Source: a virus. Taken from it: a DNA stretch of 21,715 bases. The notes beneath the pieces are model-generated. The model was not told the origin of the DNA, ran no database searches, and saw nothing but the letters and a program-made list of their open reading frames with translations. The stretch lies in the IMG/VR virus record IMGVR_UViG_3300042691_012247, positions 1 through 21,715 of that record; one strand, written 5' to 3'. Both the position numbers and the translations under genes were made by a program. Of this stretch, positions 616-21,633 are shown piece after piece; within the stretch, counting starts at the first letter, position 1; the number at the start of each line of letters is the position of its first letter.

Positions 616-624
616 ATTATACCA
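616..624 (-). promoter_or_regulatory. Candidate extended -10 promoter (TGGTATAAT)
   Basis: The minus strand reads TGGTATAAT, a perfect TATAAT with an upstream TGn extension, overlapping the last codons of the preceding gene. The ATG at 609 lies 6 nt after the hexamer, so a transcript would start at or next to the start codon. No recognisable -35 box is present. Similar motifs occur upstream of four other genes in this window. Confidence 0.4.
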
Positions 625-2750: not shown

Positions 2751-5700
2751 TATACTACCTCACTTAAAAATAATGTCATTTCTGGCCCATCTGAATTTCT
2801 TGAAAACTCAATATTGTATACAACAAATCTATTTTTTGGATCTGAAACCATGCTTGAACCATTTTCTGTGTAATCTAGAGTCACGATATCCCCCAACTGT
2901 ATGGTCGGTATAGCAAAGATTTTAACTCCTGCTGATTTTCTAGGCTTTGTAATTTTTTCCACTAACCATTTCATAAGTCCTGAAGCCTCATCTTGTGATT
3001 GAATATAAGGAGTGTCAAGGGCAAAGTCTTTTTTTCCATAAGTCATTCTGCTAAGTTTTATATCTTGGTAGTCTTGCTTAAACTTGTATGGGTTTGAAAT
3101 AAGCCTGTCTGCAACAAACTGTGGATTTGATTCAGTGCTGTTTTTACTAAAGTATTCATCAACTGTTAGGTTATTGTCTGACTCTTGAGTAAATGTTATT
3201 CCTTGAATTCTAAGATAGTTTCCACTTGTTTCATCTAAAGTAATTGCTGTATCTGTAGCATTAAATATCATAAATTCTGCTCCATAAGATCCTGCCCTAA
3301 AACCAGAAACAACATAACCCTTTATCTTATTAAATGTTGGAGATATCTTGGCAGTAAGGGCTGGGTATGCTTTATCATATTTAAAATTAAATGATGCTGC
3401 TTCTCTCATGATGCTTCCAAACTCTTCAAAGTAAATGTTATATTTTGGTGGCTCTGAAGATCCAATTCCAGATAAATATGTGTTTTGAATTAGACCACTT
3501 ATTGCATACTTTCTAAATGATTCATTTGCATCAATTTCTGTATCTCCAAACACAGAGTTAACTGGCGCACCCAAAGAGAATGTTGTGTTCTGAGAGTAAT
3601 TGTTGCATAGGGCATATACATTTTCAAACATGGCTCTTGAGGACCCTCTTGTAAATAATGCTAAATTAGAGTATGCTGGAAGTGGATCATTATCATCTAC
3701 AGTCTTTATTAGTCTTCCATTCATGTATAGATAGAATCTTCTTGTCTTTCCTATGTCTTCATACTCTACTGCTAAATCATATACCGTTGGATTTTCCTCA
3801 GCAAACATTCTTGACTGACCAGTAAACTTACCATCATCGACAGTGATCTCAGCAATTCCGTCCCATAGACCTACTGGGATGGCCTTTCCATCACTAGACT
3901 TTACTTTATAGAAGAATACATTGCTAACAGTTTCTCTATCCTTTTCTGACAAATTTCCTAACCCAAGCGCTGCAATTTCAAAATAATACCCTACGTTTGT
4001 TGTTGGGTTAAGCATAACTGCTAGTCCAGCAGAGCCTCCAGCAATATTAATGTTTTTATCTGGTGTAGAACCATTTACAACGTAATAAGTTGAAGAACCG
4101 TTAGATGTTTGTCCACGATCCTCATTGCCTTCTATCTTGCCAATAATTCTCATCCTAGTCCCAAAGTGCTTATATTTTTTATCCTGTAGAGGTTTGTGGA
4201 CATATGAAATAAAGTTTCTTGGCTTTTCTTTTGTTGTAAAATTTGGACCAGTTAAAGAAAGTGCTGATGACTGAATAGATCCTGGAAGTTGCTGAGTCTT
4301 TGTTGTTATTTCTCCAACAATTGCAGTTGACATAAAGTTTTTGATAATTCCAGTTCTGGATGCTGTTCTTGCTAAAGCATCTGAAGATATGTTAGTATCG
4401 GTTAGTTTTCCTGCTGAAAGAACTCCTGTTGTAGCAGGAAGCGTTGCCTTTTCAAAAAGATACTCAGATGCCATGTAACATCCTTTTATGTTTTCATCTG
4501 ATTTCCAATAATCTGATATTCCAGCAGAATGTTCAACAACTTCAGTGCCAAACTGACCACGACCATGTTTTACTACTGGACCATTTTGAAGTCTGACGAC
4601 TCCAGACTGCTCAAAGTATTTTGGTTCTGAATAAATTCTTACGAGCCCTGTAGGATATATCTTTCCATTAAATGGAAGTTTAGCAAAATAGTTTTGATAA
4701 TCTTCTACAGATGTAATCCACACATTTCCAAATCCAGTGACATTGTACTGAACTGCATCATATTTAATAATTTCTCCTTGTGAATAGAAGTATCCGTTAT
4801 ATCTTGTGATCCAGTACGCTGCTTCTCCAAGACTAAAAGTATTATTAATAACAATGTTATTTTTTACAGTTGGAACATCTGCTGAAAGAGTTGAGTTAAG
4901 TGGTATTGCGCTTAGAACATAAGCAGACTGTGTGCCAACCTCATTATTGATAGACTTTGTGTTTTCAGTTCCAGATACTTCCCATAGCAGGACAGGCTTG
5001 TATGTATAGAGTCTTTCTTCATCTAATAGGCTGGCTTGACGCAAAGACCCTATAGATCTTTGTATGTGTCTTGTTGTATAGTTTATTACACCATCATTGT
5101 ATAAGTTATTTGGCTGAACAGTAACCGAGATTATGTTAGAAAGTTTTGTGTTTTGATTTGTTTTATTAGAAACTACTTCATTTCTATCAAAATCTTTTGT
5201 TCCTTTTAGTTCAAAATTTGTTGCTCTTTGATCTTGTGTTGGCATAAAATAGTCTTTACTCATCATTACGAAGTTGTTGTATTCATCAAAGAACATTGCT
5301 GTTTGTGTTGATACCGCTAAGTCCTGCAAAACTTCTGCAACACTTTTATCTGGTCCAACAAAAAAGTATGGAATTATTATTTCTTTTTCATTGGCCACTC
5401 TTTTAAAGGTATAGTTAGAAAACCCTATGTGGTCTAACAAAAGAGAGACTGCAGAACTAACAGAAACCTCTGTCATCAATATTTGTGGGGCAGTCAAAGA
5501 CTCTAGGTACCAATACAGATCCCTTAAAGAAACAGATACAGTCTTTCCCATAAGATCTCTCTTTGGAAATGTATCTGAGTATAATGTTTTGATTGGAACG
5601 TAATAGTCCCAACCTTTTACATTAACAATGACTTCGTAAAACTTAAACTTAACATGTCTGTCTATATACTTTGCTATAATGCTTTCTTTATTGTTTTCAT

Positions 5701-7042
5701 TAAATGCCTGGTCATAATCAAATATTTCTATTGAGCCGTTTGAGGCAATCAACTGTCCAACTGGTAATCCACTTAGGCCAAGATCAGATGCGCTCTTGTT
5801 TACAGAGTAGTTCAAGGTCTTCTCAGAAATATTCATAACTAATCTTGGAGAAATCTCTATTAAGTCAAAAGTTGAGTCTTTTACATTCATAGTGTCTACA
5901 ACAATTCTAATGCCAGACAAATACTCAAACTCTCTATACTGCAATTTACCATCTGATGATTTAAGAAATAAATCTGGAGATGTTGCGTCTGTAACAAGAT
6001 TTGTTAACCTATTTACAGTTTCATCTTCAATATACCATCCGTACTTTGGAGTTATTTCTGTATAGTTTATTCCGTTCCAAATGTGAAAAACACCTAAATC
6101 ATTACTGCTTGATTTTATTAAATAAGCATAACCAACAACAGACTTGTCAGGAAGAAGAGAATCTGTTGAGTATGTTTCTGCAAATACAAAAGTTGATCTC
6201 CATTCTTCTGGAACTATTAATCCATATGCTATTTCAACATATCCATCACTTTTAACAATAGATGATCCATCAGACCTTCTTGTTGATGAATTAAAAGAAA
6301 CTATATCTTGCCAGTTGCCATCCTTTAGCAATTGTATTTTCCATTTGCTAGGAACTTTTTGGTTTAACTCTCCAAAGAATGGGTCTGAGAACGATCCTGT
6401 AGAGGAAGAGAACGGACCTAGATCTTCTGTTCCAGTATGCGTTTGCATTTTTACTACAACCCTGTTTGCTGGAACTTTTTCTTTATAAACCACAAAAGGG
6501 CAGGCATCTTCTATTGAGTTCTGTGGCCCCCTTACTTTTGAAGCAATTCCATATTCCTGTCCAGACTCTGTTCTATATGATGTCCAATACTTAAACTTAT
6601 CATTTTTATCTGCCATATAGTATCTTGGTCTGTCTGCCATAAAAAGGTTTGGATGATGTAGTTTTCCATTTTCAAAAAACACAGCCTTGTTGATTCCAGA
6701 TCTTGGTCGATGCTGCTCGAAGCATGCCTCTAAAGAATAAAGTGTCTGAAGTTTGTCTTTTTTAGGAAAGAATACGCTTGGAGACCCATCATCCTTAAAT
6801 GTTCCATCTACTAAAACATCTGCATCTGTTGCTCCAGTATAGTAGTTTCCAGAATCGTTAATGTCAAAACTTGTGGGAAGTGAAGCATATACAGAAGAAG
6901 TCTGTGTTGGTCTATACCTATAGTTACCAATATGTTTTATATTGGTTGGTATGTTCATGTTCCATTCTGCTAAGATTATTGACTTATTCCGTACCGTCGG
7001 AGAAGTCTCTAAAAATGTTTGCAGGTCTTTATCTTCAAACAT
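2750..7042 (-). CDS. Large tail hub / minor tail protein with carbohydrate-binding-type domains
   Basis: This protein has 1430 residues. Residues about 190-275 resemble a discoidin (F5/8 type C) or galactose-binding fold, with ANRVVVKMQTHTG followed by KWKIQLLKDGNWQDI. Residues about 430-640 look like a gp27-type hub domain, including the segment VAEVLQDLAVSTQTAMFFDE. Residues about 957-1146 read as a concanavalin/LamG-like sandwich with GYYFEIA, FYLYMNGRLIKTV and a closing MFENVYAL strand. The C-terminus (about 1330-1430) has IQLGDIVTLDY and VVYNIEFSRN, typical of hub C-termini. The hub would therefore be interrupted by sugar-binding modules. It lies directly after the Dit-like gene (TAATG overlap), where siphoviruses place their Tal/hub gene. 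Fold assignments are by eye; the hub role is probable. No peptidase or lysozyme motif was seen. Confidence 0.65.
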   Translation of the reverse strand: MFEDKDLQTFLETSPTVRNKSIILAEWNMNIPTNIKHIGNYRYRPTQTSSVYASLPTSFDINDSGNYYTGATDADVLVDGTFKDDGSPSVFFPKKDKLQTLYSLEACFEQHRPRSGINKAVFFENGKLHHPNLFMADRPRYYMADKNDKFKYWTSYRTESGQEYGIASKVRGPQNSIEDACPFVVYKEKVPANRVVVKMQTHTGTEDLGPFSSSTGSFSDPFFGELNQKVPSKWKIQLLKDGNWQDIVSFNSSTRRSDGSSIVKSDGYVEIAYGLIVPEEWRSTFVFAETYSTDSLLPDKSVVGYAYLIKSSSNDLGVFHIWNGINYTEITPKYGWYIEDETVNRLTNLVTDATSPDLFLKSSDGKLQYREFEYLSGIRIVVDTMNVKDSTFDLIEISPRLVMNISEKTLNYSVNKSASDLGLSGLPVGQLIASNGSIEIFDYDQAFNENNKESIIAKYIDRHVKFKFYEVIVNVKGWDYYVPIKTLYSDTFPKRDLMGKTVSVSLRDLYWYLESLTAPQILMTEVSVSSAVSLLLDHIGFSNYTFKRVANEKEIIIPYFFVGPDKSVAEVLQDLAVSTQTAMFFDEYNNFVMMSKDYFMPTQDQRATNFELKGTKDFDRNEVVSNKTNQNTKLSNIISVTVQPNNLYNDGVINYTTRHIQRSIGSLRQASLLDEERLYTYKPVLLWEVSGTENTKSINNEVGTQSAYVLSAIPLNSTLSADVPTVKNNIVINNTFSLGEAAYWITRYNGYFYSQGEIIKYDAVQYNVTGFGNVWITSVEDYQNYFAKLPFNGKIYPTGLVRIYSEPKYFEQSGVVRLQNGPVVKHGRGQFGTEVVEHSAGISDYWKSDENIKGCYMASEYLFEKATLPATTGVLSAGKLTDTNISSDALARTASRTGIIKNFMSTAIVGEITTKTQQLPGSIQSSALSLTGPNFTTKEKPRNFISYVHKPLQDKKYKHFGTRMRIIGKIEGNEDRGQTSNGSSTYYVVNGSTPDKNINIAGGSAGLAVMLNPTTNVGYYFEIAALGLGNLSEKDRETVSNVFFYKVKSSDGKAIPVGLWDGIAEITVDDGKFTGQSRMFAEENPTVYDLAVEYEDIGKTRRFYLYMNGRLIKTVDDNDPLPAYSNLALFTRGSSRAMFENVYALCNNYSQNTTFSLGAPVNSVFGDTEIDANESFRKYAISGLIQNTYLSGIGSSEPPKYNIYFEEFGSIMREAASFNFKYDKAYPALTAKISPTFNKIKGYVVSGFRAGSYGAEFMIFNATDTAITLDETSGNYLRIQGITFTQESDNNLTVDEYFSKNSTESNPQFVADRLISNPYKFKQDYQDIKLSRMTYGKKDFALDTPYIQSQDEASGLMKWLVEKITKPRKSAGVKIFAIPTIQLGDIVTLDYTENGSSMVSDPKNRFVVYNIEFSRNSDGPEMTLFLSEVV

Positions 7043-7674
7043 TAGACCTCTTCCAGACTTACAGAAACATTCCAGTAGTCAAAGTTACTTCCTCTTTTTT
7101 CAACAGAGTATGAGAAATCACTAATAAACATTTCTACTATCTGATTATACTCTTGTAGGTGCTTATATGGCTCTTCTTTATTCTTAAAGTTACCCTTTTT
7201 ATCATAGGAAAGAAATACCCAGAAAGACCCCTTGTGAGACTCATACCACTCAAGCATATCTCCTCCACCTGCTCCGCCATCTGTTGTGTATGGCTTGTAG
7301 AGTGGGACTCCAGTCTGTGTGTCAAAAGTTGGAAAGTCTGCATGAGATCTTGATGGAATCATATTCCAACTTGTGCTTATTGTAAGTTTGTCTGCAATGT
7401 GATACGATCTCATACGACCATTAATCATTCTTTCACGCTTTTCAATTCTTTCTTCTGAGAACTCTAGTGGGTCTCTATTATCATCTGTTATTAGTAAGAA
7501 TTGATTTAGGAGTGTATCGTCTTCAACTGCATCTGGATCTACACCAATTTCATACCCATAGGGTATGTAAAAACTGTTCTCAAGAGTCCCAGAGTTTTCA
7601 GACCACAACATTCCACTTGGTCTGTTGTATTTTTTACGTCCCTGCATATATAACGCTCTAGACTCATCTGCCAT
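7042..7674 (-). CDS. Distal tail (Dit-like) minor tail protein
   Basis: This 210-residue protein is encoded immediately after the tape measure gene, where the distal tail protein normally lies in siphoviruses. It begins MADESRALYMQGRKKY. It has a mixed alpha/beta body with ADKLTISTSWNMIPS (about residues 93-108), an aromatic strand pair around KGSFWVFLSYDKKGNF, and a C-terminus of strands ending YWNVSVSLEEV, similar in style to Dit or baseplate-hub belt domains. The start codon overlaps the tape measure end by 11 nt, with GGGGAG about 9 nt upstream inside the tape measure gene. The next gene overlaps its stop as TAATG. It would link the tail tube to the hub. The Dit name rests mainly on position. 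Confidence 0.6.
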   Translation of the reverse strand: MADESRALYMQGRKKYNRPSGMLWSENSGTLENSFYIPYGYEIGVDPDAVEDDTLLNQFLLITDDNRDPLEFSEERIEKRERMINGRMRSYHIADKLTISTSWNMIPSRSHADFPTFDTQTGVPLYKPYTTDGGAGGGDMLEWYESHKGSFWVFLSYDKKGNFKNKEEPYKHLQEYNQIVEMFISDFSYSVEKRGSNFDYWNVSVSLEEV

Positions 7675-10600
7675 TTAGTGACACTCCCCTAATTCTTCTG
7701 TCGTCAACCTTTTTAATTGTTGACATAACTGCTTGTGCAATATCATTTGGATTTGCATTTGTCTTAGCATTTACAGTTAATGTATATGTATTATTATACA
7801 CTGTTCCACCAACAGGATCTCCGTTATTTATTTTGTTCATATTGTCTACTCCATAAGTATCTACTGCATACTTACTCATAACAAATTCTCCTGGAGTCAA
7901 CATCGCTGGGATTGTATCAGTGCCCCTTGCAAAACCACCAAGGGCAAACATCTTTGGAATAATTCCACCCTTAGCCTTATATTGAGGAGGAATAAACATA
8001 CTTCCGTTATAAACACCAGTTCCTGGAACAAGTGTCTTCTTTTGTGTTGGTGGGACTAATACTGGTAGCAGTGGTTTTGGCGTAGCCTTTGGTGTAGCCT
8101 TTGGTGCCTGAATATTATCTGGAATTCCATTTTTGTCTAAATCTTTTGGTGCTGGTACTGGTGTTGGATTGCGCTTAAAACCATTTGGGTCTGCGATATA
8201 AACAAATCCAGGGACCTTTCCACTTGGTGCTGGTGTAGGCTTTGGCGTAGGCTTTGGCGTAGCAGTTGGCTTTGCTGTCGGAGTTGGTGCGCCACTGGCC
8301 TTAAGAATTCCTTCAAGGGTAGTTGTATTTACGGTTCCGCTTGGAGTAGGGGTAGGAGTAGGTGTTGGAGTAGGTGTTGGTTCCTCGGTAGCATTTACAA
8401 TTGGCTCTGTGTTTGCTTTATCATTGTTGTAGGCATTTATTAGAGTTGGGAAAATATCTAAGGCATCTTGCATAGACTTTAAGAATTTTTCACTATTAAC
8501 CCTTGCAAGATCTACTAGGTTTTTAATTCCCTCCCAAGCCTCTCTTGTTTTTCCAAGCACGGTTAAGTTTTCAATATCTGTTTCAAGTTTGAGTTGTCTT
8601 AGTCTTAGCAACTCTGCTGCTGGCTCTAATTGTTTTTCTTCTATTTCAAAAATTTTATCTTGAAGGTCTTTAATTTCTTTTTCAAGTTCTTTTCTTGACT
8701 TTCCATCCTTTGATCTTAAATTTGATAGTTCTAGTTCTCTTGATTTTTCTACTGCCTCTTTTTCTTTTGTTACGGCATCTGCTGCTTGCTGTGCTCTCAT
8801 TTCCTGGGCAGCCCTTGCAGCAGCAGCGATATCTCCAGAGGTTAGTGCTTCAGCAAGTGTCAGTTGACCCTTTTGCTGAGCAGATATTGAGGCGTTAGCC
8901 TTTTCAACTTCATCTAAAGCCTTAATTCTTTCATCATACTTTTCATTAATCTTTTCTTCTTGGTCTGCTATTCTCTTAAGGTCTGCGTCTTTGTCATCTA
9001 TTTCAAACTGTATAAGAGAAATTTGATTTTCTGCATCTTTAATTTCTTGATTAATTTTCTTGGTGTCAATATTAAACTGAAGTTGTAGTTTAGTTTCTTG
9101 AACATCAAAAGATTCCATTGCATTGCTAAATCCTTGATCAAAAATATCTTGCATTCCAGGAATAGTAAGTTTTTTAAATTTAAGTTCTACGTTTGCCTTG
9201 TCAGTAGTTTTTTGTAATAGGTTTTTAAATCTATCATTATCTATTCCAAATTCAATCATGACTGCCTGCAGTGCTGGGCTATCAAGTATTGCACTTATTT
9301 GGTCCTTGGAGAATTGAGAAAGATTCTTTGTCATTCCTGTCAAGAGTTTTACTCTGTCATCTAGTTCTGTAGTTTCTCCAGTTGCCAAATCTATAGCAGC
9401 CATTCTTCTTTTTGCTATTGTTGCAGCATCTGCTGCCTTTACAATCTTCTTTAGTTCTTTATCTGTTAGTTTTTTATTTGCAATTGCTGCAGCAAAGGTG
9501 GCATCTGCAACTGCTTCTAGCGCAACAGACCCTTCAACGCCAGCAGCCTGTAACCTTTGTAGGGCTGTAACCTGGCTACCAATTTGTTTTGACATCTTTT
9601 CTTGATCACTGACAAAAGTTCCAAGAGCAATTGACTGTAGAGCATCTCCAATACTTTTTGCTCCATCCTTTAACTTTTTAATATTATCCTTTTCGTCAAA
9701 CTCAAATAATTTCTTCTTATGCTTTTCATATTCTTTTGGATCCATGCCAACGATAAGTTCAATTAGGTCTTCTCCTGCCCCTAGTTTTCTCATGTCATTT
9801 TCTATACCGCTATAGATATCAATTGTTTTGTTACCACCAAAAAGTTTATTTAAAGATTTAAATGATGCGTCAAAACCTTCTGTAACCTTAATTTGGTTTT
9901 TACGAACATCTCTTAGTCTTTTTAAAAGATCGTCTAAAGGTGAAGACTGAATCTTTGACCCTTCGCCTGATGGAGTCTTTGGTGGTGCTAATGCTGCAAG
10001 TCGTATTGACTCTTCCGTTACAGTATAAGGCTGGAACTGTCTGTATGCTGCAACCTGCTCGCCAATAGGTTTACCTGCATAAGATAATTTGTTATACATT
10101 GCACCATTTTGTTGCCAAAGTTTAAAATCTGGAGATGCAATGATTTCTGGGTCTGGAATATTTACTATTGTTGCAATTTCTTTTAAGTAAGTAAGTTTGT
10201 CTGTTTCACCAAGTTTGTTAAAATAGTCTGCATCAATTGCGCCCATAACATTTTCTGGTAAGAAGGTAGTCATAACCTTTATGTCTAGTCTGTCTTTGTT
10301 CTTTTCAATAGTGTCTAAAAGTCCCTGTGTTGTTGCTGCAACTGTTGGATTTTTAATATAGTAACTTATTATAGCGTTCATGTCAAATACTCCATTTGTG
10401 TTCGCTACTTCAGCAAAGAACCCTATGTATTTTGCTGCTTCTTGATCATTTGCTTTTTTAGAAACATTGGCAATAAAATCTGTTTGTAGTTTGGTGTTTG
10501 GTGTCCCATCTGGGTTTGAAAACATACCCATAACTCTTGTTGCTTCGTCTCCAGTTCTTGCACTAAAGTTAGCAATTATATCCATGTACTGCTCTTTTAC

Positions 10601-13600
10601 TTTTTTGTTATCTCCAAAATTTGTAAACAAAAATACTTGCTGGCTTGGAGTCAGTTCTCCTGTAGACATCTTAACTCTAATTAAATGCTGCTGTTCTGAT
10701 GTTAAACCAGATTCAGAAATTTGCAACTTGGCAGCATCTAGGTATTGCATCTCATCTGTGCCCTTGTATCTTTGTGTAAGTAGTTTATCTAAACCAGTAT
10801 CGATAGCCTCCCTTACGTTGCCCTTTGTTTGTCCATACTGAGTCATGATCTGTGTATTTATATCTTTTCCCTTTGTTGCTAAGGCAAGTCTATCATCATC
10901 ATAATCCTTTTGCATTTCTTTCATTTTTGTAATCTTGCCCTCAACCTCAAGTTCTTTTAACTTTTTCTGATAGTAAAGATCTAAAGAATCCATCAACTCT
11001 TGTTGCTGCTCTAGTTGCGACCTTTGAGAACCAACGTATGCACCAGACATTGCTGCTTGTTTCTTGTTTGAGTTTCTTTGGGCCATATACCCTATTCCAG
11101 CGCCAGCGATTGTTCCGATGCCTGCTCCGATAAGAGCGCCCTTTGGTCCAAGGAATGCACCTATTGTACCTCCAGCCCTAGCCCCAGCCATGGCACCTGC
11201 TCTCATTCCTAGTGCTCCCACTGCTGCTGCAGGAAGTGCTATTCCTGCTTTAGGATTCATTGCTCCAAGACCTGAAGATACAAACCCTGACTGCTGTTGC
11301 ATAGTATTAAATACGTCTGTGTTTTGTTTTGTTTTTTCATTTATCAAATCCACTCTAATCTGAAGCGGATCTTTTTCTAGGTTCTCTCCATTTGGACCTA
11401 TAATCTCATTTATATTGGCTGTAACAGAAAATCCTAACCCATAGTTTCCAGTCTTTTGCCCTATGTTTAACGCTATAGACTTTGCTTGTGATGCATCAAT
11501 GGCTCCAGACAAAACACTAGTCATTAACTGATTAGTTAGATCTGAAACTGCTCCCTTTTGATCTCCTGCTTTTAATCTTGTATTTGCTGAACTCATTAAG
11601 GCTTTACCAGTTTTGCTTTCTACAAAAGATTGTCCAAATGTTGTTTTGCCAGGCTTTGCTCCAACAAGACCAAATTTTTCTTGGCTTCTTCTTTGCATAA
11701 TTTCTCCAGCACTAACATTGCCAGCAAACTCTGCATAACCCTTTATGGCATCTTTTCCAGACCCCATATTGGTTGATAACTTTATAGCCTCATCTTGTGC
11801 TTTATCAAATTCCATTCTTAACTTTACAATAGCACCAACTACAGCCATCGCAGCAACTGCCACTAATCCCATTTTACTTCCTAGCATTGGAAGGATCATT
11901 CCAAGACCCATGAGTGGCATCATTAGTTTTTGCGACATCTCTCCTATTGCACCTGGCATCATAGAGCCCATCATTGCAATACCACCTGCTGCCATAGCCA
12001 TACCACCAAGACCCATTTTTTGAGTCTTTTGTCCATTTGCTTTTGCTTCTGCTCTCTTTGCTGCATTTTTTTCTCGTGCTGCTTTAATTGCATTTGCTAC
12101 GGTATTTTTATTAAGAACCTTTGTTGCGTTTTTCATACTTCTTGTAAAAACATTTGCCGATGCTGACATATCTTTTGTTAAACTAATTAGAGGCATACCC
12201 TTTGCTACTCTTTTTTCATTTTGCTTTCTAATTGATTTTTCTATAGCAGAAGGTGCTTCAGTTCCATACATTCTTGTTGAATTTGCTAATGCCCTTGCTT
12301 GAGACTCTACAGCCTTCTTTTCTATATTTCTTGCTACACGCTCTTGTAGGTCTGGATTAAGAATAGGCGCAGGTTTTGGAGTTGCTACAGCAATAGGTGC
12401 AGTAGGTATTAGTGGTGTCCCTGCTGCTGCTCTTTTTTCATTTTGTCTTCTAATTGATCTATCTACAGCAGATGGATTTTGATTTCCATACATTTGCATT
12501 GAGTTTTGTGCTGCTAATGATTGAGCCTTTGCAGCATCTTCTGCCATTTTCTTTGCTAAACGTTTTTGTAGGTCTGGATGAAGAATAGTTGGAGCATCTG
12601 ATTTTCCTGGAATTCTTTGTACATTACGAACTTGTGGAGCAACTTCTGCTGGAACTGTTCTGCTATCTTTACTTCTTTTCTTGGTTTTGGTTGTTCCCAT
12701 AGGGCCAGACTTTGGCTTTTTTTGTTTTCCTTTTTCATCAACGACAACTTCATTTGGTGCTATAGCAACCTTTTTACCTTTTGTATGAATTTCCCAAAGT
12801 TCTTTCCAGTCTAGGCCTCTTGCTGCTTCTAATCTTTCAATCATTGCGTTATAAGGCTTTGCTTGTGCAGCATCTAATCCAAAACCTTTTACTGTTTCTT
12901 TAAGTGCTGGAAGAACTCTTTCTATTTCAGCATTTACTGCTCTAGTATATTCCTCTGCAGTCATGCTTGATGCTATATCTTTGGTTGCTTCAAGGAAAAA
13001 AGTTTTTGCTCCTGATCCTGTAACGCCACCCAAGTTAATCTTTGCTTGGTCTGCAAAAGATCTTAGACTGTTGCTAACAACTCTTGCTTCTCCCTTTTTT
13101 GCATTGTATTGTGAGGCTTCGTCATAAATACCAGCAGGTCCTACATCTGCTAATGCATTACCACCTAGATTTCCCCTTGTAAGATCTTTGTCTCCACGAA
13201 GTGCCGAAGCAACTAACTGCCTAAAATATTGCTTACGACCTTCTTCCCCATCAGCGAACTCTGGCAAGTTAGCAAACTTTGGATCAAACGGAGACTCAAG
13301 AGCATAAGATCTTTTGCCAGTGTTAGGGTTTTCAATAACTACTATTCTTTGATCTGGAGCATCTAGTCCATGTGCTTTTCTTGCTATGATAGTTGCTCTT
13401 TGTTCTGCAAGAGCATTATCTAGATCTATCATTGGCTTTACAAATACTTGCTTGCCATCTTTTGTTTTGTACAGACCAGATACATCACGGTCAACAATAT
13501 TGCTATATCCAGTTCCCTTAGCGACATGCTCTCTGTATTCTGTTACTGGAACACTGGGATCCGCATTTCCATATAGAACAGCCCTAGCCTTTTCCAATAA

Positions 13601-16600
13601 CTTCTTTGGTGCTTTAAGTTTTGGTCCAAGACCTCCAGAGTCTGGAGTTGATCGCATTGGCTTAAACTTATTTTCTTTTTCATCAAAATATGCTGCATTT
13701 CTTTTATCTGTGAATTTCCATTCACTCATAGGTCTAATTCTTCCAGTGCCCTGCTCTGGTCTTGGACCGCTTAATTCTGGTCTATTGTAACCAACTATTC
13801 GTTTCTTTTCGTCTACCTCTACCTCAATCAGTTTGCCTGGTTCAAACTTTGCAATGTTTTCAAATGCTTTTATTACTGCAGCATTAGTCTTGGTTTCTTT
13901 TAATCTTTTTATAATATCTTCTACTGATCTAGTCTGTGAATAGGTTTTATTTGCAGTTCCCTGACCACTTACTCCCTGAGCCTCAAGAAGAGTTTTAATC
14001 GCTGAGGATGTAGTTCCCTTTTTCTCTGACAAAGCACCAAGAATACCTGATTTAGCATCTCCCATTCTTGAGTAGATTGTTTTATCATTTACAAGGGTTC
14101 CTTCTGGAAGCATTCTTAATTCTGAAAGAAGTTCTGTTCTTATTCTGTTTGTTACCATCGCTGCTTGGTTTGCACTAAGACTGGTTGGTGGCTTCATTAA
14201 GTTTCCAGTCATTGTTTCTACAGCACGTGGCTTCTGTAACTCTTCAATGTATAACTCTACAGGAGCGCCCTGCTTTTTAATTAAGTTACCTTCTTTATCT
14301 AAAATATCTTCTGCACTAATTAATTTATGTATATTTTTATCTATGTCAAAACCAATACCCGTGTATAGGTTTGCTTTTTCTTTTCCAATTCCCTTAATTC
14401 TTTCAGCATCTGAAGCAAATCTTTCAGGAACATCTTCAACATTTACAATTGTTTTATCTACTGCGTGTGCAAACTGTGTTTCTCCTGATAGCGCAACCTT
14501 TGTAGCGCCACCATTAAATCCTTGTACAGTTTGTCCTGCAATCATTCTTGCAATTACTGGTCTGTTTGATGGATCCTGTGCTGCCTTTGCTGGAATAACT
14601 GCTTCTCCAGGAGTAAGCATTGCTGGAACAGTGTCTTGGTTTCCTTGCCCTGGAACTCTTCTTGTTCCTGTTGAGTACTTTGCGCTTTGTGGTCCACCTC
14701 TTGGCATACCTCTACCAACTGGTCCAGTAAATCCAACCTGTGCTGCAATGGCTCTTCTGTATGCATTTGCAAGCATGTTTACTGCTGCTGTTTCAGATGT
14801 AAAGGTTTGTCTTAATTTTTGATGAACCTGATCAAGTGATGCTGCAACTGCAGAGGCTTCAAGTTGTTCTTTTGTTAAATAGTCTGTTTGTTGTCCTAGA
14901 ATCTGACTTGAAGAGCCTACCCTATTAAATGTAGACTTCATTGTTGCAAATAGTTTAATTATGTTTGCAACACCGTTAGCAAGCAAACCAAAAGACATGA
15001 GTGCTACTGGACCTATGGCTCCAAGTGCTACTGTTAAAATAGTTACAAACTTTTTGCTTCCATCGCTTAAGCCATTAAACTTTTCTAAAATTTTTCCTAC
15101 AAACTCAACAATAGGGGTTAGGGCTTTTAGGAACTGCTCTCCTACTGGAGCAAGGCTTACCTTTAAATCTTCTACTGCTTTCTTAAACTTATAGGAAGTT
15201 GACTCTTCAATTCTTCCCAATTCTCGCTCAGACAAAATTGCTAGTTCTTCAGTTGTAGCCTGTGTAAGTTTTAAAACTCTTGACGCTTGTGTTCCTTCTT
15301 TTGTTACGTTTTGGAACAAAGTAGATAGTCTTGAAAACTGAAACTTTCCAAACAACTGCTCGATTGCTCGTGCACGATTAAGTGGATCTAGTGTATCTAA
15401 GGCTGCTGCAAAGTCGATTACTGTTGACTTTACATCTCCAGCATTTGCTTCTACGATACCCTTGATATTTACGCCAAGGCCCATGAGCATCTTTGATGCT
15501 TTTTCAGATGGGTTAATTAAAGAAGCAAGACCAGACTTAAGGGCGTTAGCACCTTCTGATGCGTTAATTCCACCTTCCTTCATTGCTGTTAGGAAGAATG
15601 CAAGATCTTCTACATCTCCACCAAGTTGTTGAACAACTGGTCCAGCCTTTGGAATTGCAATCGTTAAATCTTCAATAGAAACAACAGTTTGGTTTTCAAC
15701 TGCGTTTAAGAAGTCAATTTTCTTTGCTAAATCTTCTGTGGCAACACCGAATGCATTTGTTACGGAGATAGTTGTTTCTAGTGCTTGCTCCTGCTCAACT
15801 CCACCAAGGACAGCAAGACGAGTTGCTTCATTGACCTGTGCAAGTAAATCTGCACCCATCTTACCCATTGCTGCTGCGTTGGCAGCCATCTCCATAGTTT
15901 TTTCTACTGCAACTCCATACTTTGTATACTCTTTTGCAAGTAACTGAATGTTTTTAACCATCTTGTCAGTTTCTTCTTGAGTGGTAAACATTTCACCATA
16001 GACACGCTTAAACCTAATTGCCTGCTCTTCAAGTTTCATAAATGTCTTAGCAGCGGTTGAGCCAAGCATTACGAGAGGTATTGTAAAACCAACCATCAAC
16101 TGGCGACCAGCCCACTGGGTGTTCTTACCAAAGTTTAGAAGATTAGTTGAGCCTTGCTTTAGCAACTGATTTAAAAGTTGTTGCTTTTGTGCTGCCATGG
16201 CAGTTTGTGTACCAAGGTTTTGCATATCTAAAGTGAGAGGTCTTACTGCGATAGACTGTAGAGCACCATTGGCTCCACGACCCAACTTAATATACTGAGT
16301 CTGAATATCTTTTACACGCTCACGGACTACTTTATTTATAGTCTCAAATTCAGACCTAAAAAGTCTACCAAAAGTTTTTGTTGCTGCACCCGTGTATCTA
16401 AAGTACTCTCTGGATGTTAGTTTATTTTTTTCTAGTGAATCAGTAAACGCTTCTGTACTTGATCGTACTGTACGCATAGATGCCTGGAACTGTCCAGTGG
16501 CATTTATTGCGTTCATCAAGTTTTGTGCTTGATTTGCTGCTACCGCATTTGCTGCAGTACCAGACTTTGCCATTTGTGTATGGAAGGCTGATATTTGACG

Positions 16601-16675
16601 CTGTAGCAGTTTTAAACTTGCTAGAGCATCCGACGTATCAATATTTACATGAATATTGGATTGAACATCAGCCAT
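7664..16675 (-). CDS. Tail tape measure protein (3003 aa) with internal kinase-like domain
   Basis: It sets tail length and is expected to be ejected into the cell during infection. Residues about 190-520 match the PhageMin_Tail/TP901 type tape measure core, with AMGKMGADLLAQVNEAT and AFFLTAMKEGGINASEG. Hydrophobic stretches lie at 543-576, 1555-1618 and 1810-1864; the last is a Gly/Ala zipper. The motif PAMLTPGE occurs twice (near 685 and 2923). A kinase-like domain lies at about 1040-1300, two related 60-residue repeats at 1364-1423 and 1438-1497, coiled coils at about 2530-2710, and Pro-Thr-rich linkers at 2765-2870. The start at 16675 has AAGAGGTG 7 nt upstream; an ATG 4 bases earlier opens only a three-codon frame. 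It follows the chaperones as expected. No lytic transglycosylase or peptidase motif was recognised. Confidence 0.93.
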   Translation of the reverse strand: MADVQSNIHVNIDTSDALASLKLLQRQISAFHTQMAKSGTAANAVAANQAQNLMNAINATGQFQASMRTVRSSTEAFTDSLEKNKLTSREYFRYTGAATKTFGRLFRSEFETINKVVRERVKDIQTQYIKLGRGANGALQSIAVRPLTLDMQNLGTQTAMAAQKQQLLNQLLKQGSTNLLNFGKNTQWAGRQLMVGFTIPLVMLGSTAAKTFMKLEEQAIRFKRVYGEMFTTQEETDKMVKNIQLLAKEYTKYGVAVEKTMEMAANAAAMGKMGADLLAQVNEATRLAVLGGVEQEQALETTISVTNAFGVATEDLAKKIDFLNAVENQTVVSIEDLTIAIPKAGPVVQQLGGDVEDLAFFLTAMKEGGINASEGANALKSGLASLINPSEKASKMLMGLGVNIKGIVEANAGDVKSTVIDFAAALDTLDPLNRARAIEQLFGKFQFSRLSTLFQNVTKEGTQASRVLKLTQATTEELAILSERELGRIEESTSYKFKKAVEDLKVSLAPVGEQFLKALTPIVEFVGKILEKFNGLSDGSKKFVTILTVALGAIGPVALMSFGLLANGVANIIKLFATMKSTFNRVGSSSQILGQQTDYLTKEQLEASAVAASLDQVHQKLRQTFTSETAAVNMLANAYRRAIAAQVGFTGPVGRGMPRGGPQSAKYSTGTRRVPGQGNQDTVPAMLTPGEAVIPAKAAQDPSNRPVIARMIAGQTVQGFNGGATKVALSGETQFAHAVDKTIVNVEDVPERFASDAERIKGIGKEKANLYTGIGFDIDKNIHKLISAEDILDKEGNLIKKQGAPVELYIEELQKPRAVETMTGNLMKPPTSLSANQAAMVTNRIRTELLSELRMLPEGTLVNDKTIYSRMGDAKSGILGALSEKKGTTSSAIKTLLEAQGVSGQGTANKTYSQTRSVEDIIKRLKETKTNAAVIKAFENIAKFEPGKLIEVEVDEKKRIVGYNRPELSGPRPEQGTGRIRPMSEWKFTDKRNAAYFDEKENKFKPMRSTPDSGGLGPKLKAPKKLLEKARAVLYGNADPSVPVTEYREHVAKGTGYSNIVDRDVSGLYKTKDGKQVFVKPMIDLDNALAEQRATIIARKAHGLDAPDQRIVVIENPNTGKRSYALESPFDPKFANLPEFADGEEGRKQYFRQLVASALRGDKDLTRGNLGGNALADVGPAGIYDEASQYNAKKGEARVVSNSLRSFADQAKINLGGVTGSGAKTFFLEATKDIASSMTAEEYTRAVNAEIERVLPALKETVKGFGLDAAQAKPYNAMIERLEAARGLDWKELWEIHTKGKKVAIAPNEVVVDEKGKQKKPKSGPMGTTKTKKRSKDSRTVPAEVAPQVRNVQRIPGKSDAPTILHPDLQKRLAKKMAEDAAKAQSLAAQNSMQMYGNQNPSAVDRSIRRQNEKRAAAGTPLIPTAPIAVATPKPAPILNPDLQERVARNIEKKAVESQARALANSTRMYGTEAPSAIEKSIRKQNEKRVAKGMPLISLTKDMSASANVFTRSMKNATKVLNKNTVANAIKAAREKNAAKRAEAKANGQKTQKMGLGGMAMAAGGIAMMGSMMPGAIGEMSQKLMMPLMGLGMILPMLGSKMGLVAVAAMAVVGAIVKLRMEFDKAQDEAIKLSTNMGSGKDAIKGYAEFAGNVSAGEIMQRRSQEKFGLVGAKPGKTTFGQSFVESKTGKALMSSANTRLKAGDQKGAVSDLTNQLMTSVLSGAIDASQAKSIALNIGQKTGNYGLGFSVTANINEIIGPNGENLEKDPLQIRVDLINEKTKQNTDVFNTMQQQSGFVSSGLGAMNPKAGIALPAAAVGALGMRAGAMAGARAGGTIGAFLGPKGALIGAGIGTIAGAGIGYMAQRNSNKKQAAMSGAYVGSQRSQLEQQQELMDSLDLYYQKKLKELEVEGKITKMKEMQKDYDDDRLALATKGKDINTQIMTQYGQTKGNVREAIDTGLDKLLTQRYKGTDEMQYLDAAKLQISESGLTSEQQHLIRVKMSTGELTPSQQVFLFTNFGDNKKVKEQYMDIIANFSARTGDEATRVMGMFSNPDGTPNTKLQTDFIANVSKKANDQEAAKYIGFFAEVANTNGVFDMNAIISYYIKNPTVAATTQGLLDTIEKNKDRLDIKVMTTFLPENVMGAIDADYFNKLGETDKLTYLKEIATIVNIPDPEIIASPDFKLWQQNGAMYNKLSYAGKPIGEQVAAYRQFQPYTVTEESIRLAALAPPKTPSGEGSKIQSSPLDDLLKRLRDVRKNQIKVTEGFDASFKSLNKLFGGNKTIDIYSGIENDMRKLGAGEDLIELIVGMDPKEYEKHKKKLFEFDEKDNIKKLKDGAKSIGDALQSIALGTFVSDQEKMSKQIGSQVTALQRLQAAGVEGSVALEAVADATFAAAIANKKLTDKELKKIVKAADAATIAKRRMAAIDLATGETTELDDRVKLLTGMTKNLSQFSKDQISAILDSPALQAVMIEFGIDNDRFKNLLQKTTDKANVELKFKKLTIPGMQDIFDQGFSNAMESFDVQETKLQLQFNIDTKKINQEIKDAENQISLIQFEIDDKDADLKRIADQEEKINEKYDERIKALDEVEKANASISAQQKGQLTLAEALTSGDIAAAARAAQEMRAQQAADAVTKEKEAVEKSRELELSNLRSKDGKSRKELEKEIKDLQDKIFEIEEKQLEPAAELLRLRQLKLETDIENLTVLGKTREAWEGIKNLVDLARVNSEKFLKSMQDALDIFPTLINAYNNDKANTEPIVNATEEPTPTPTPTPTPTPSGTVNTTTLEGILKASGAPTPTAKPTATPKPTPKPTPAPSGKVPGFVYIADPNGFKRNPTPVPAPKDLDKNGIPDNIQAPKATPKATPKPLLPVLVPPTQKKTLVPGTGVYNGSMFIPPQYKAKGGIIPKMFALGGFARGTDTIPAMLTPGEFVMSKYAVDTYGVDNMNKINNGDPVGGTVYNNTYTLTVNAKTNANPNDIAQAVMSTIKKVDDRRIRGVSLNGR
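7877..7918 (-). other. Second PAMLTPGE motif in the tape measure (residues 2920-2933)
   Basis: The reading is DTIPAMLTPGEFVM, preceded by GGFARG. This is the common phage tape measure motif of the form G-x-D-x-(V/I)-P-A-M-L-x-P-G-E. It sits between the Pro-rich linkers and a short beta-like C-terminus, and matches the copy near residue 681. Confidence 0.7.
8066..8383 (-). repeat. Pro-Thr/Lys-Pro-rich linker region encoded by short repeats
   Basis: Residues 2765-2870 of the tape measure contain an alternating Pro-Thr run (about 2766-2777), then TPKPTPKPTP-type repeats (about 2798-2816) and KATPKATPKP (2859-2868). The DNA shows 6-base periodicity (GGTGTT/GGAGTA-like on the plus strand). Between the repeats, DLDKNGIPDNI (2845-2855) resembles a calcium-binding thrombospondin type 3 or EF-loop sequence. 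Such linkers are extended and flexible, and repeats of this kind can change length by slippage. Confidence 0.75.
11084..11248 (-). other. Gly/Ala-zipper hydrophobic segment of the tape measure (residues 1810-1864)
   Basis: About 55 residues are made almost wholly of Gly, Ala, Ile, Leu and Met with GxxxG spacing, e.g. GAGIGTIAGAGIG. This pattern forms tightly packed membrane helices. In tape measure proteins such segments are thought to enter the host inner membrane during DNA entry. The function is inferred from composition. Confidence 0.6.
12185..12586 (-). repeat. Imperfect tandem duplication inside the tape measure
   Basis: Copy 1 is residues 1364-1423 (12407-12586) and copy 2 is residues 1438-1497 (12185-12364), 74 residues apart. 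By eye 32 of 60 positions are identical. Both begin I-L-x-P-D-L-Q-x-R, contain M-Y-G-x-x-x-P-S-A, and end S-I-R-x-Q-N-E-K-R-x-A-x-G-x-P-L-I. The spacer is Pro/Ala-rich. The unit is charged and probably helical. Confidence 0.85.
12776..13558 (-). other. Kinase-like domain within the tape measure (about residues 1040-1300)
   Basis: The N-lobe candidate contains SGLYKTKDGKQVFVKP (1066-1081), which resembles a glycine-containing strand pair ending in the ATP-anchoring lysine (K1080). AEQRATIIARKAHGL follows, with E1091 as a candidate for the helix-C glutamate. A hinge-like strand RSYALESPF (1122-1130) comes next. GDKDLTRGNLGG (1161-1172) has D1164 and N1169 at the same spacing as the DLKPEN catalytic loop of protein kinases and the D-x-H-x-x-N loop of PI3/4-kinases. 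GIYDEAS (1182-1188) gives a candidate metal-binding D1185, as in HipA-type kinases. The remaining part is helical. The family call is mine by pattern; activity is unproven. Confidence 0.5.
14591..14635 (-). other. First PAMLTPGE motif in the tape measure (residues 681-695)
   Basis: The reading is DTVPAMLTPGEAVIP, preceded by a Gly/Arg/Pro-rich stretch (about 650-680). It is the same motif as at residues 2920-2933. It marks the end of the N-terminal tape measure core and the start of the accessory insert carrying the kinase-like domain. Confidence 0.7.
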
Positions 16676-16692
16676 CCATTAACACCTCTTAT

Positions 16693-17016
16693 TTAGTTAT
16701 TTGCAAGGTTGCCAAGTAGTGATGCGTCAGAAAGTTTAATTCCTGATGCCTCTTCGACAATCTTGTATACTGTAGGAAGATCTAGGTTTTCTTCTAGGGC
16801 TTCCTTGTCTTCTGCCAATTCTGGCTTGTATTGCTTCATTGCGATTAATACACATTCCATGAGAAGATCCATGGACTTTTCGTTATCTTCTGCGACCTTT
16901 GCAATATCTTCAAACTTCTTCATGAATGGACGAAGTAGAGAAATCTTGAGTGGTCGTACTTTGATCTTTGTACCATCAATAAGTGTTACTGTTTTTTCTT
17001 CAGTGGCCGTTGCCAT
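16693..17016 (-). CDS. Short tail assembly chaperone (G-like)
   Basis: This 107-residue protein is encoded just before the tape measure gene, the position of the lambda gpG-type chaperone that coats the tape measure during tail assembly. Nearly its whole length aligns with the N-terminal domain of the next gene upstream: shared PLKI-x-x-LR, KFE-x-I, LIAM-x-QY-x-P, LDLPT-(V/I)-Y and A/S-GIK. It stops after GNLANN and has no T-like extension. The gap to the tape measure is 17 nt, too short to hold one, and I see no slippery heptamer near its end. The start at 17016 has a perfect AGGAGG 5 nt upstream. It probably acts as the abundant short chaperone form. Confidence 0.75.
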   Translation of the reverse strand: MATATEEKTVTLIDGTKIKVRPLKISLLRPFMKKFEDIAKVAEDNEKSMDLLMECVLIAMKQYKPELAEDKEALEENLDLPTVYKIVEEASGIKLSDASLLGNLANN

Positions 17017-17042: not shown

Positions 17043-17051
17043 ATTATACCA
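17043..17051 (-). promoter_or_regulatory. Candidate extended -10 promoter (TGGTATAAT) of the short chaperone
   Basis: TGGTATAAT lies in the 58-nt gap between the two chaperone genes. A start site about 7 nt downstream (near 17036) would give a leader of about 20 nt carrying the AGGAGG. There is no consensus -35 box at 16-18 nt; a TTGATA lies 20 nt away, which is too far for a standard promoter. Confidence 0.45.
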
Positions 17052-17074: not shown

Positions 17075-17752
17075 TTAATATGACTCATAGTCAAGGCCCA
17101 TACCAATTCCAAACCCTGCCTTTTCAGCATTTCTTCCCTGAAGGGCAAGTATGTCATTTCCATTACTTGTCGCTCCCTTACTAAATACCCTGGCTTTCAT
17201 ATCTTCCCAGGCGTTATTATTTCCAGAGTTTTTATCTAAATCTACACCCTGCATTGCAGCAGCAAATTTTTTATCACTATAATCAAGTTCTCTTTTTATT
17301 GTAATTGTTGCAGTTAGTTCTGGCATTGATAAAGACTTTTCTAGTTCTTCATAGTCTTTCCATATGCCTATTAAAAATGCTTCTGATTCTAGTTTTGCTA
17401 AATCTAATGTCTCCCAGGATGAACCGCTATCAACTGCTTGAGACTTTACTGTGTCCTCAGATTTTTCATTAATCTTAATTCCTGCTGCAACATCTATGAC
17501 ATCATATATTGTTGGAAGGTCTAGACTGTCTTCTAGATCATCAATAGTTTTGATTGATGGGCAATACTGCTGCATTGCAATAAGGGCGCAATGTGCTAAA
17601 ACAGATATTGACTCATCGTCAGTTTTTGCCTGTTTAATTTCTTCAAATTTTTCTAGAAATTCTCTGAGATACTTTATCTTTAAGGGTGCAGCAATAATAA
17701 CTCTATCATCTACTAATGATATTTTTTTACTTTTATAGACTTGTGTTGCCAT
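17075..17752 (-). CDS. Long tail assembly chaperone (GT-like)
   Basis: This protein has 225 residues from the ATG at 17752 (MATQVYKSKKISLVDD). A longer reading from 17782 would add ten residues encoded inside the preceding hairpin and is rejected. Residues 1 to about 95 are homologous to the short chaperone. Residues about 115-225 form a second domain with IWKDYEELEKSLSMPEL, KKFAAAMQGVDLD, AWEDMKARVF and a GFGIGMGLDYESY end, resembling the T part of G-T chaperones. In most siphoviruses this long form is made by frameshifting at the end of a short gene; here it is a self-contained gene. No Shine-Dalgarno is present; TGGTATACT ends 6 nt before the ATG, suggesting a leaderless start. Confidence 0.75.
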   Translation of the reverse strand: MATQVYKSKKISLVDDRVIIAAPLKIKYLREFLEKFEEIKQAKTDDESISVLAHCALIAMQQYCPSIKTIDDLEDSLDLPTIYDVIDVAAGIKINEKSEDTVKSQAVDSGSSWETLDLAKLESEAFLIGIWKDYEELEKSLSMPELTATITIKRELDYSDKKFAAAMQGVDLDKNSGNNNAWEDMKARVFSKGATSNGNDILALQGRNAEKAGFGIGMGLDYESY

Positions 17753-17758
17753 TATACA

Positions 17759-17767
17759 AGTATACCA
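17759..17767 (-). promoter_or_regulatory. Candidate extended -10 promoter (TGGTATACT), leaderless arrangement
   Basis: The hexamer TATACT has one mismatch from TATAAT and carries a TGG extension. The ATG at 17752 follows after 6 nt, the same distance as before the ATG at 609. The motif lies between the cUUCGg hairpin and the long chaperone, so it could restart transcription after termination. No -35 box was seen. Confidence 0.4.
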
Positions 17768-17774
17768 AACAGAA

Positions 17775-17800
17775 AGGCCCAACCCCGAAGGATTGAGCCT
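17775..17800 (-). terminator. Stem-loop with cUUCGg tetraloop after the major tail protein gene
   Basis: The transcript folds as an 11-bp stem, AGGCTCAATCC and GGGTTGGGCCT, with two G-U pairs and a loop TTCG closed by C-G, an unusually stable tetraloop. TTCTGTTT follows, which is only a weak U-tract. It starts 19 nt after the major tail protein stop. It could be a partial terminator or a 3' stabiliser for the abundant tail-tube mRNA. Confidence 0.7.
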
Positions 17801-17818
17801 CTCATATATTAAGTTGTA

Positions 17819-18475
17819 TTATGCTTCTAGGGAACGATCTACGATCTTTCCGTATGATGCATTGTCGTTTGGAAGAAGACGGAATGACACTTCAAACATT
17901 GAAGCCTCATCACGCTTTGCTGATACTGTAACATTCTCAATTGAGAGTGCACGATATGCAACATAGATTCTTTCCTTTGGCTCTAGAGAAGAACCAGAAC
18001 CTGGTCCTACTGCTACGAGTCCACGCTCTAGTGGAACGTCGCCGATATCTCCAGCAGACATCTTGAGTGTTGAAACTCCTGATGCTGTTGTTAGATCTTC
18101 GTCGTCTGCTGCAATTGCAACTAGAAGGTTCTCTAGTGTTGCTTCTGCGAAAGCAGTGTTTAGATTAACTGTCATACCTTGCTTGAATAAACGAGCAACG
18201 TCGAGAAGTTGATCTACCGCTACTTCACCGAAATCTGGCTGGAATGCGAGTTCCAAACCATTTGTTGTGTATCCTACGTTTGTGAATGCATTGTCTGCTG
18301 ACAATGTGTCCTTGTAAGATGTTGCGGATGCTGTGAATGCTGGAAGATCTGTACCTGCTTGGGTATCAGTGATCGCTCCAGTTACTGAGTCGTATCCGAT
18401 TGGACCTGCATCATGCGTAAAAAGTGCTGCTGCACCTACGATGATGTTACTACTTGAACCACGGCTGTATGCCAT
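17819..18475 (-). CDS. Major tail (tube) protein
   Basis: This protein has 218 residues from the ATG at 18475 (MAYSRGSSSNIIVG). An in-frame ATG at 18493 exists, but its first codons are the Shine-Dalgarno itself (GAGGTGAG, 18480-18487), so 18475 is chosen. The sequence is Ala/Gly/Thr/Asp-rich and alternates beta strands with one clear helix (VDQLLDVARLF, then a long acidic helix LENLLVAIAADDEDL), as in tail tube subunits. Its C-terminal strands read ASMFEVSFRLLPND. It lies after the neck genes and before the chaperones and tape measure, exactly the tube-protein slot. Its DNA looks less AT-rich than its neighbours, as for a highly expressed gene. It has its own candidate promoter and a strong hairpin after it. 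Confidence 0.82.
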   Translation of the reverse strand: MAYSRGSSSNIIVGAAALFTHDAGPIGYDSVTGAITDTQAGTDLPAFTASATSYKDTLSADNAFTNVGYTTNGLELAFQPDFGEVAVDQLLDVARLFKQGMTVNLNTAFAEATLENLLVAIAADDEDLTTASGVSTLKMSAGDIGDVPLERGLVAVGPGSGSSLEPKERIYVAYRALSIENVTVSAKRDEASMFEVSFRLLPNDNASYGKIVDRSLEA

Positions 18476-18479
18476 ATTT

Positions 18480-18487
18480 CTCACCTC
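18480..18487 (-). promoter_or_regulatory. Shine-Dalgarno deciding the major tail protein start
   Basis: GAGGTGAG on the minus strand precedes the ATG at 18475, with its core 6 nt away. It lies inside the six codons that a start at 18493 would translate, which argues for the downstream start. Confidence 0.75.
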
Positions 18488-18492
18488 TTTCA

Positions 18493-18504
18493 TTTTATTA
18501 AAAG
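18493..18504. repeat. TTTTATTAAAAG repeat, copy 1
   Basis: This 12-bp element on the plus strand recurs exactly at 18535-18546, 42 bp away. It lies between the candidate promoter and the Shine-Dalgarno of the major tail protein. It is part of a near-palindrome and may be an operator half of a pair. Confidence 0.5.
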
Positions 18505-18523
18505 GGCTTGTTTCCTCAAGTTA

Positions 18524-18532
18524 ATTATAACA
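18524..18532 (-). promoter_or_regulatory. Candidate extended -10 promoter (TGTTATAAT) of the major tail protein
   Basis: There is a perfect TATAAT with TGn extension in the 72-nt gap before the tail tube gene. The start site would be near 18517, giving a leader of about 40 nt that includes the Shine-Dalgarno. No -35 box was found at 16-18 nt. Exact repeats of TTTTATTAAAAG flank it on both sides. Confidence 0.5.
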
Positions 18533-21087: not shown

Positions 21088-21543
21088 TTATCCAAAAGCC
21101 TTCTGGACTTCTTCTGGTGTGGCAAGTCGTACATGTGATCTTGTAAGCCACTTGTCTGCTTGTGCCTTTGTGACAATATTGTAACCCTTAGAAATTGAAC
21201 CAACCTCTTCCCAACGAACGCTCTTTGTTGAGTGGACTGCTACCTTTTCTGAAAGATCTACTTCTGCCTTAACCTTCTTGCTTGGGCCGTCTGCTGCCAT
21301 TGATCCAATAGCGCCTGTCTCTGTAAATCCTAGTGACTGAACTGGCTCTTCTGCTGCTGGTGCTTCTACTACTGCTTCAGCAACTGGTGCTTCTACAACT
21401 GCTTCGACTACTGGCTCTGCTGCTGGTTCAACTACTGGCTCTGCTACTGGCTCTGCTGGTGTCTCTACCACTGGGGCTTCAACATGTGCATGCTCTTCTT
21501 CATTGTTTGATGAAAACGGCTTATTATAATTGTTATTTTCCAT
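21088..21543 (-). CDS. Low-complexity Ala/Glu/Pro/Val protein with conserved-looking C-terminal domain
   Basis: This protein has 151 residues. Residues 1-20 are Asn/Glu/His-rich. Residues 21-68 are an acidic, probably disordered stretch built from units such as EPVVEAP. Residues about 96-151 form a compact domain: VAVHSTKSVRWEEVGSISKG, then YNIVTKAQADKWLTRSHVRL and a short helix TPEEVQKAFG. I do not recognise the family. Its place between the capsid gene and the adaptor suggests a head-associated role such as a decoration or head-fibre part, but this is positional. The ATG at 21543 has AAGGAGG 5 nt upstream and its own candidate promoter after the capsid-gene hairpin. Confidence 0.6.
   Translation of the reverse strand: MENNNYNKPFSSNNEEEHAHVEAPVVETPAEPVAEPVVEPAAEPVVEAVVEAPVAEAVVEAPAAEEPVQSLGFTETGAIGSMAADGPSKKVKAEVDLSEKVAVHSTKSVRWEEVGSISKGYNIVTKAQADKWLTRSHVRLATPEEVQKAFG
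21340..21483 (-). repeat. Degenerate in-frame repeats encoding Ala/Glu/Pro/Val units
   Basis: The DNA consists of imperfect copies of short units (plus-strand GCTTCTACTACTG / GGCTCTGCTACTG types), encoding residues 21-68 of the 151-residue protein. Such repeats commonly vary in number between relatives. Confidence 0.65.
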
Positions 21544-21561: not shown

Positions 21562-21570
21562 ATTATATCA
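21562..21570 (-). promoter_or_regulatory. Candidate extended -10 promoter (TGATATAAT)
   Basis: There is a perfect TATAAT with TGn extension, lying between the capsid-gene hairpin and the 151-residue gene. The start site would be near 21555, immediately at the AAGGAGG Shine-Dalgarno. A -35 box would fall in the hairpin arm, and none is visible. Confidence 0.45.
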
Positions 21571-21582
21571 TTAAAGTATTAA

Positions 21583-21612
21583 GGGGGACAGGAGAGTGAA
21601 CTCCCGCCCCCC
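21583..21612 (-). terminator. Strong stem-loop after the probable capsid gene
   Basis: The transcript forms a 12-bp stem, GGGGGGCGGGAG with CTCCTGTCCCCC (two G-U pairs), and a loop of six bases, TTCACT. It begins 21 nt after the capsid stop. TTAATACTTTAAT follows, AT-rich but without a U-run, so termination may be partial, or the stem may protect the 3' end of the capsid mRNA. Confidence 0.75.
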
Positions 21613-21633
21613 ATTAAAGGTACTGTTTACAGA

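Follow-up and report, generated by a model that had tools for sequence, protein, structure and literature searches.

The structural region and its repeated word

The window analysed here comprises an entire IMG/VR fragment of 21.7 kb, in which every gene lies on the minus strand. Its content is that of the structural part of a tailed-phage genome (major tail protein, two chaperone-like genes, tape measure and minor tail proteins), and its gaps amount to ~313 nt of non-coding DNA. The tape measure protein (7664-16675, minus strand) has 3003 aa, from which a very long tail is predicted. The window was compared with ~150 environmental loci of close relatives, including contigs of 118 kb; gene calls in these relatives were made by a simple script and are approximate.

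The tube protein of the window is 47% identical to the major tail protein of Annadreamy (Stanwilliamsviridae, Streptomyces phages), and Rhodococcus is the host of some relatives. A WhiB-like protein is encoded in all three of the 118-kb relatives, and matches to the WhiB family in the control set were confined to the actinobacterium. Because the relatives include Streptomyces and Rhodococcus phages and three of them carry a WhiB gene, the host is most likely an actinobacterium. A megablast search against cultured phages gave no match, and no prophage turned up when genome contigs were scanned with the short chaperone. Stanwilliamsviridae such as Annadreamy resemble the window in gene order, in homologous tube, G and T proteins and in terminator-promoter pairs in the matching gaps, where Annadreamy has hairpin-like and -10-like sequences as judged by eye.

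The first-pass annotation of this DNA had reported five TGnTATAMT words on the coding strand and had read them as a family of extended -10 late promoters, perhaps used with a phage-encoded factor, that would allow separate tuning of head, tube, chaperone and tip genes. All five words are present at the positions given below, together with the genes and hairpins that surround them.

21579-21617, minus strand: hairpin upstream of the 21562 promoter (-26.4 kcal/mol, z -5.6; weak U tract), probably the terminator of the head genes
21562-21570, minus strand: extended -10 TGATATAAT before gene 21543; predicted RNA start 21555, with a 12-nt leader containing AAGGAGG
21088-21543, minus strand: opening gene of the connector block, predicted to be transcribed from the 21562 promoter
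18524-18532, minus strand: -10 element TGTTATAAT before the tail-tube gene; predicted RNA start 18517, with a 42-nt leader
17819-18475, minus strand: major tail (tube) protein gene (phrog_2175)
17772-17803, minus strand: terminator hairpin separating the tube gene from the long chaperone gene (-23.4 kcal/mol, z -5.1)
17759-17767, minus strand: extended -10 TGGTATACT, leaderless arrangement (hexamer, 6 nt, ATG 17752)
17075-17752, minus strand: long tail assembly chaperone, in-frame G-T fusion, 225 aa (phrog_10504 + phrog_10474)
17043-17051, minus strand: extended -10 TGGTATAAT between the chaperone genes; predicted RNA start 17036, with a 20-nt leader containing AAGGAGG
16693-17016, minus strand: short tail assembly chaperone of 107 aa, a second G-domain copy (phrog_10504)
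616-624, minus strand: extended -10 TGGTATAAT, leaderless arrangement (hexamer, 6 nt, ATG 609)
166-609, minus strand: gene of the tail-tip region, predicted to be driven by the 616-624 leaderless promoter

The start of the tail-tube gene is most likely ATG 18475, which has a good Shine-Dalgarno site. For the gene after 17767, TTG 17782, which gives a longer ORF, was replaced as the start by ATG 17752.

As had been claimed, each gap longer than 20 nt holds one word, and the word at 616-624 spans a 7-nt gap, where its TATAAT takes in the upstream gene's stop codon; no word lies in the 17-nt gap that precedes the tape-measure gene. A sixth copy lies inside a gene on the plus strand (5672-5680). 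Shuffled sequences lead one to expect 2.5 copies in the window on both strands, and four of the five minus-strand words fall wholly within the ~313 nt of non-coding DNA, where the shuffle density predicts ~0.02 on the coding strand. The reported lack of a -35 box also holds, none of the five words having more than 3 of 6 matches at 15-19 nt. A promoter scan of the window found promoter-like sites no more commonly than in shuffles, because the scan requires a -35 hexamer.

Conservation and placement in related genomes

Upstream DNA was compared gene by gene across the relatives, and the words proved to be retained at the same genes. The word before 21543 is kept in 17 of 17 distinct relative sequences, the word before 609 in 30 of 30 relatives, always at 6 nt, and the word before 17752 in 57 of 58, with a spacing to the start codon that is likewise always 6 nt. 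Before 17016 it stands 25-27 nt from the start codon in 61 of 65 relatives; the remaining four rows show 6 nt, as the paralogue does, and are most simply read as matches to that paralogue. At the tube gene TATAAT is found in 72 of 72 relatives and TGN in only 16, so the TG is optional there. A TGn followed by a TATAAT-like hexamer is thus present at all five sites of the window and kept by the relatives at four, and no other window gene with relatives to compare has the word upstream.

In pairwise comparison, identity at the fourfold-degenerate sites of gene 17752 is 54.5%, as against 100% at positions -6 to -17, where the motif lies. This conservation shows selection on the word before 17752. 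The relatives of gene 21543 are mostly too close for a fourfold test (98.6%), and two with different flanks retain the word.

The first-pass annotation would have been contradicted by a genome-wide scan in which the word was equally frequent inside genes. In the three 118-kb relatives, 33 of 49, 32 of 46 and 35 of 48 copies are intergenic and directed at the next gene, as compared with 0 to 8 such copies for permuted words in the same genomes, a result that speaks for promoters. Conservation, placement and the absent -35 support the idea that these words are extended -10 promoters lacking a -35 box, a family that divides the structural region into separate units. The label 'late' is not supported, since the motif is spread genome-wide and also precedes glycosyltransferase, glutathione-peroxidase-like and 2OG-oxygenase genes.

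Two side observations concern the wider genome. In one relative, a gene with a leaderless promoter (L163:4765-5439, minus strand) has as its product a 2OG-Fe(II) oxygenase that matches Tet/JBP weakly, so that DNA-base modification is possible. In another (L174, minus strand, ~5790-5931 and 6548), serial tiny ORFs of 28-83 aa each have their own leaderless promoter, apparently forming an early-type region of monocistronic small genes.

Leaderless spacing and proposed transcription units

At 17752 and 609 the -10 hexamer ends 6 nt before the start codon, a leaderless spacing, and the few bases before the ATG contain no Shine-Dalgarno site; 21543, 18475 and 17016 have leaders. An RNA start 7 nt after the hexamer would place the first base of the predicted RNA on the A of the ATG. 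The first-pass annotation overlooked this geometry at two of its five sites, as well as the duplicated chaperone gene. In the three 118-kb genomes an ATG stands at offset 6 after the word at 39 of 143 sites and at every other offset at 10 or fewer, and after permuted words at offset 6 in 7 of 240. The three genomes share sites and their counts are partly non-independent; 32 distinct leaderless sites are left after removal of near-copies. At these 32 sites the -35 signal is not above that of shuffles. Of the other intergenic sites, 13 of 49 match a -35 at 5 or 6 of 6 positions (1.4 expected).

TGnTATAAT is the ordinary sigma-70/sigma-A extended -10 consensus, with which a -35 box is dispensable. 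The phage words share the sequence and the missing -35 box with such promoters, and differ in that two of the five double as leaderless start signals. In Actinobacteria about one fifth of genes are leaderless, with a TANNNT signal ~12 bp before the start codon (PMC3160421), and in M. tuberculosis TGN occurs in only 7% of TANNNT promoters, which are the strongest (PMC3898074). The actinobacterial leaderless sigma-A promoters described there have, like the phage sites, a -10 placed 6-7 nt before the ATG, no leader and no -35, whereas the phage has the near-full consensus TATAMT plus TG. Small actinobacterial genomes share the spacing of the phage sites for the looser TANNNT, which was found at 6 nt in 12 of 133 ORFs and at 7 nt in 6. 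The full form TGnTATAMT-N6-ATG hardly occurs in 395 genomes of the class (15 matches in total), although the true host may not be among them. This near-absence of the full form means that the phage sites are not simply typical host promoters, and the notion of a copied typical host promoter was dropped, the exact form being nearly absent from the 395 class genomes and from twelve small ones. A literature search for leaderless promoters in actinophages found no direct report; such reports may still exist.

The TGnTATAMT words are very likely real promoters, and we hold with high confidence to the following account. The words would most likely be recognised by the housekeeping RNA polymerase of the host (sigma-A type), with no -35 box involved, and would be of two kinds. 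The first has a start codon exactly 6 nt past the hexamer, so that the RNA would begin with AUG and the mRNA be leaderless (609, 17752). In the second, a short leader bears a Shine-Dalgarno site (21543, 18475, 17016). Together with terminator hairpins, the promoters would split the structural region into units that are dosed separately. These units would be the head genes with a terminator; a promoter with 21543 and the connector genes; a promoter with the tube gene and a terminator; a promoter with the long chaperone; a promoter with the short chaperone, the tape measure and following genes; and a promoter with 609 and following genes. The 17767 promoter would thus serve the long G-T chaperone and the 17051 promoter the short G chaperone, as two genes. 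Readthrough across unit borders may occur. Among the hairpins, that at 21579-21617 is conserved with changes in two relatives (L124, L105), and that at 17772-17803 is present in relatives with differing stem sequences.

Several other readings of the words can be weighed against these tests. Chance occurrence of TATAAT-like words in AT-rich gaps might be argued from the finding that, with one mismatch allowed, the word is as frequent as in shuffles, but placement, conservation and spacing all oppose it, and the conservation measured against fourfold sites refutes it, so that we regard it as barely credible. It is also conceivable that the words are promoters and the ATG at 6 nt is incidental, the RNA coming from an upstream promoter and a longer leader being used. 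Such a reading fits the place of gene 609 at an operon's end, where readthrough RNA reaches it. The concentration of the ATG at exactly offset 6, the invariant spacing at 17752 (57 of 57) and 609 (30 of 30), the terminator hairpin that separates the tube gene from 17752 and the missing Shine-Dalgarno sites at both genes nevertheless make it quite improbable.

A phage regulon controlled by a phage-specified factor, either an unrecognised phage sigma or a phage WhiB that shifts host sigma-A off its -35 contacts, draws on more of the data. The WhiB-like gene is present in all three 118-kb genomes, the leaderless sites are without a -35 signal, and the phage carries the exact motif at leaderless spacing at some hundred times the density seen in actinobacterial genomes; moreover, isolated Nanopelagicales phages encode both whiB and a sigma-70 factor (PMC10202952). 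Against it, matches to Sigma70 region 2 and region 4 domains were all below the cut-off in the three 118-kb relatives (one fragmentary match, in one of them), ordinary -35 boxes accompany part of the remaining intergenic sites, and a word identical to the general sigma-70/sigma-A consensus requires no special factor. We therefore consider a phage factor, which had also been suggested in the first-pass annotation, unlikely, and favour reading by the host polymerase, with the WhiB-like protein as a conceivable phage co-factor.

With ~13 sites per 118-kb genome and no room for a Shine-Dalgarno site, TGnTATAMT-N6-ATG offers a simple, testable way of locating transcription units and the correct starts of genes in uncultured actinobacterial phages.

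The tube-gene leader (18476-18517, minus strand) contains two blocks, GAGGAAACAA and CCCTTTTAATAAAATGAAAGAGGTGA, that are near-invariant in 72 relatives and perhaps form an expression or stability element; it also contains a second in-frame ATG, at 18493. A second TATAAT lies across the start codon of the long chaperone (17751-17759, minus strand; TTGTATAATGG) and is separate from the leaderless signal.

Two chaperone genes between tube and tape measure

The products of the two chaperone genes share an N-terminal G domain, with 43% identity between the second G and the corresponding part of the long chaperone, and both are encoded between the tube and tape-measure genes. Fused and short genes occur together in this position in 144 loci. 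Annadreamy has a G gene (gp34) and a T gene (gp35) in the -1 frame, and the G-T junction of the long chaperone (SGSSWETLDLAKLESEAF) is the same as that of gp34/gp35 (GGSWEELDLASLEAELF). Outgroup contigs found with the Annadreamy T protein all (80 of 80) have a single G and a T in the -1 frame, with no second G within the stretch examined, and thus appear to be arranged as for programmed frameshifting. In these frameshift-type relatives the overlap did not fix a slippery site. Stanwilliamsviridae such as Annadreamy have one G with T in the -1 frame, whereas the window and its close relatives have an in-frame G-T fusion, and a second G with its own promoter.

A G-domain tree places the fused G as sister to the second G, with good support for both groups, and puts one split-type phage beside them. 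The tree fits a single duplication, with long branches that leave the exact position of that outgroup unsure. The single G gene of split-type phages has the word in 33 of 45 distinct upstream sequences and the leaderless spacing in 0; it commonly has TGnTATAAT and a Shine-Dalgarno leader, like the short gene here, and the leaderless promoter belongs to the fused gene.

In lambda G outnumbers G-T by 30:1 (PMC5009743), and one would accordingly expect little of the long form to be made and much of the short one. Two-gene solutions have precedents: T4-like phages are described, in work by Vladimirov et al. (2022) as cited in PMC10885494, as having short and fused chaperone genes, and in some Microbacterium phages the chaperone ORFs are expressed separately (PMC7302621). 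According to that citation, the T4-like case has the same short gene and fused long gene without a frameshift, a likeness in gene arrangement; the phages described here differ in lineage, in their separate promoters and in having leaderless versus Shine-Dalgarno starts. Two chaperone genes are thus a known principle, and the novelty lies in how the promoters are arranged and in the lineage.

We see roughly even chances that a widespread lineage of uncultured actinobacterial phages has swapped the ratio-setting frameshift for a gene duplication with two promoters, the long form being leaderless and the short form led by a Shine-Dalgarno site. On this reading, the protein ratio would be set at initiation and not by slippage. 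Alternatively, the dosage of the pair might have nothing to do with frameshifting in other phages, and the second G might have taken on another role, as the identity of only 43% between the two G domains could suggest. Such a role is doubtful, given that the long protein shares its domain junction with the presumed frameshift product of relatives, that both genes keep company between the tube and tape-measure genes in 144 loci, and that unfused relatives encode just one G, with T in the -1 frame. If promoters do set the dose, one group of related phages would provide a natural comparison of frameshift and promoter control of the same tail-assembly ratio.

The long protein varies little in length, 70 of 72 distinct versions having 225 or 226 aa, and in one relative (L067/L143) it is 153 aa long, with an in-frame deletion in the T part.
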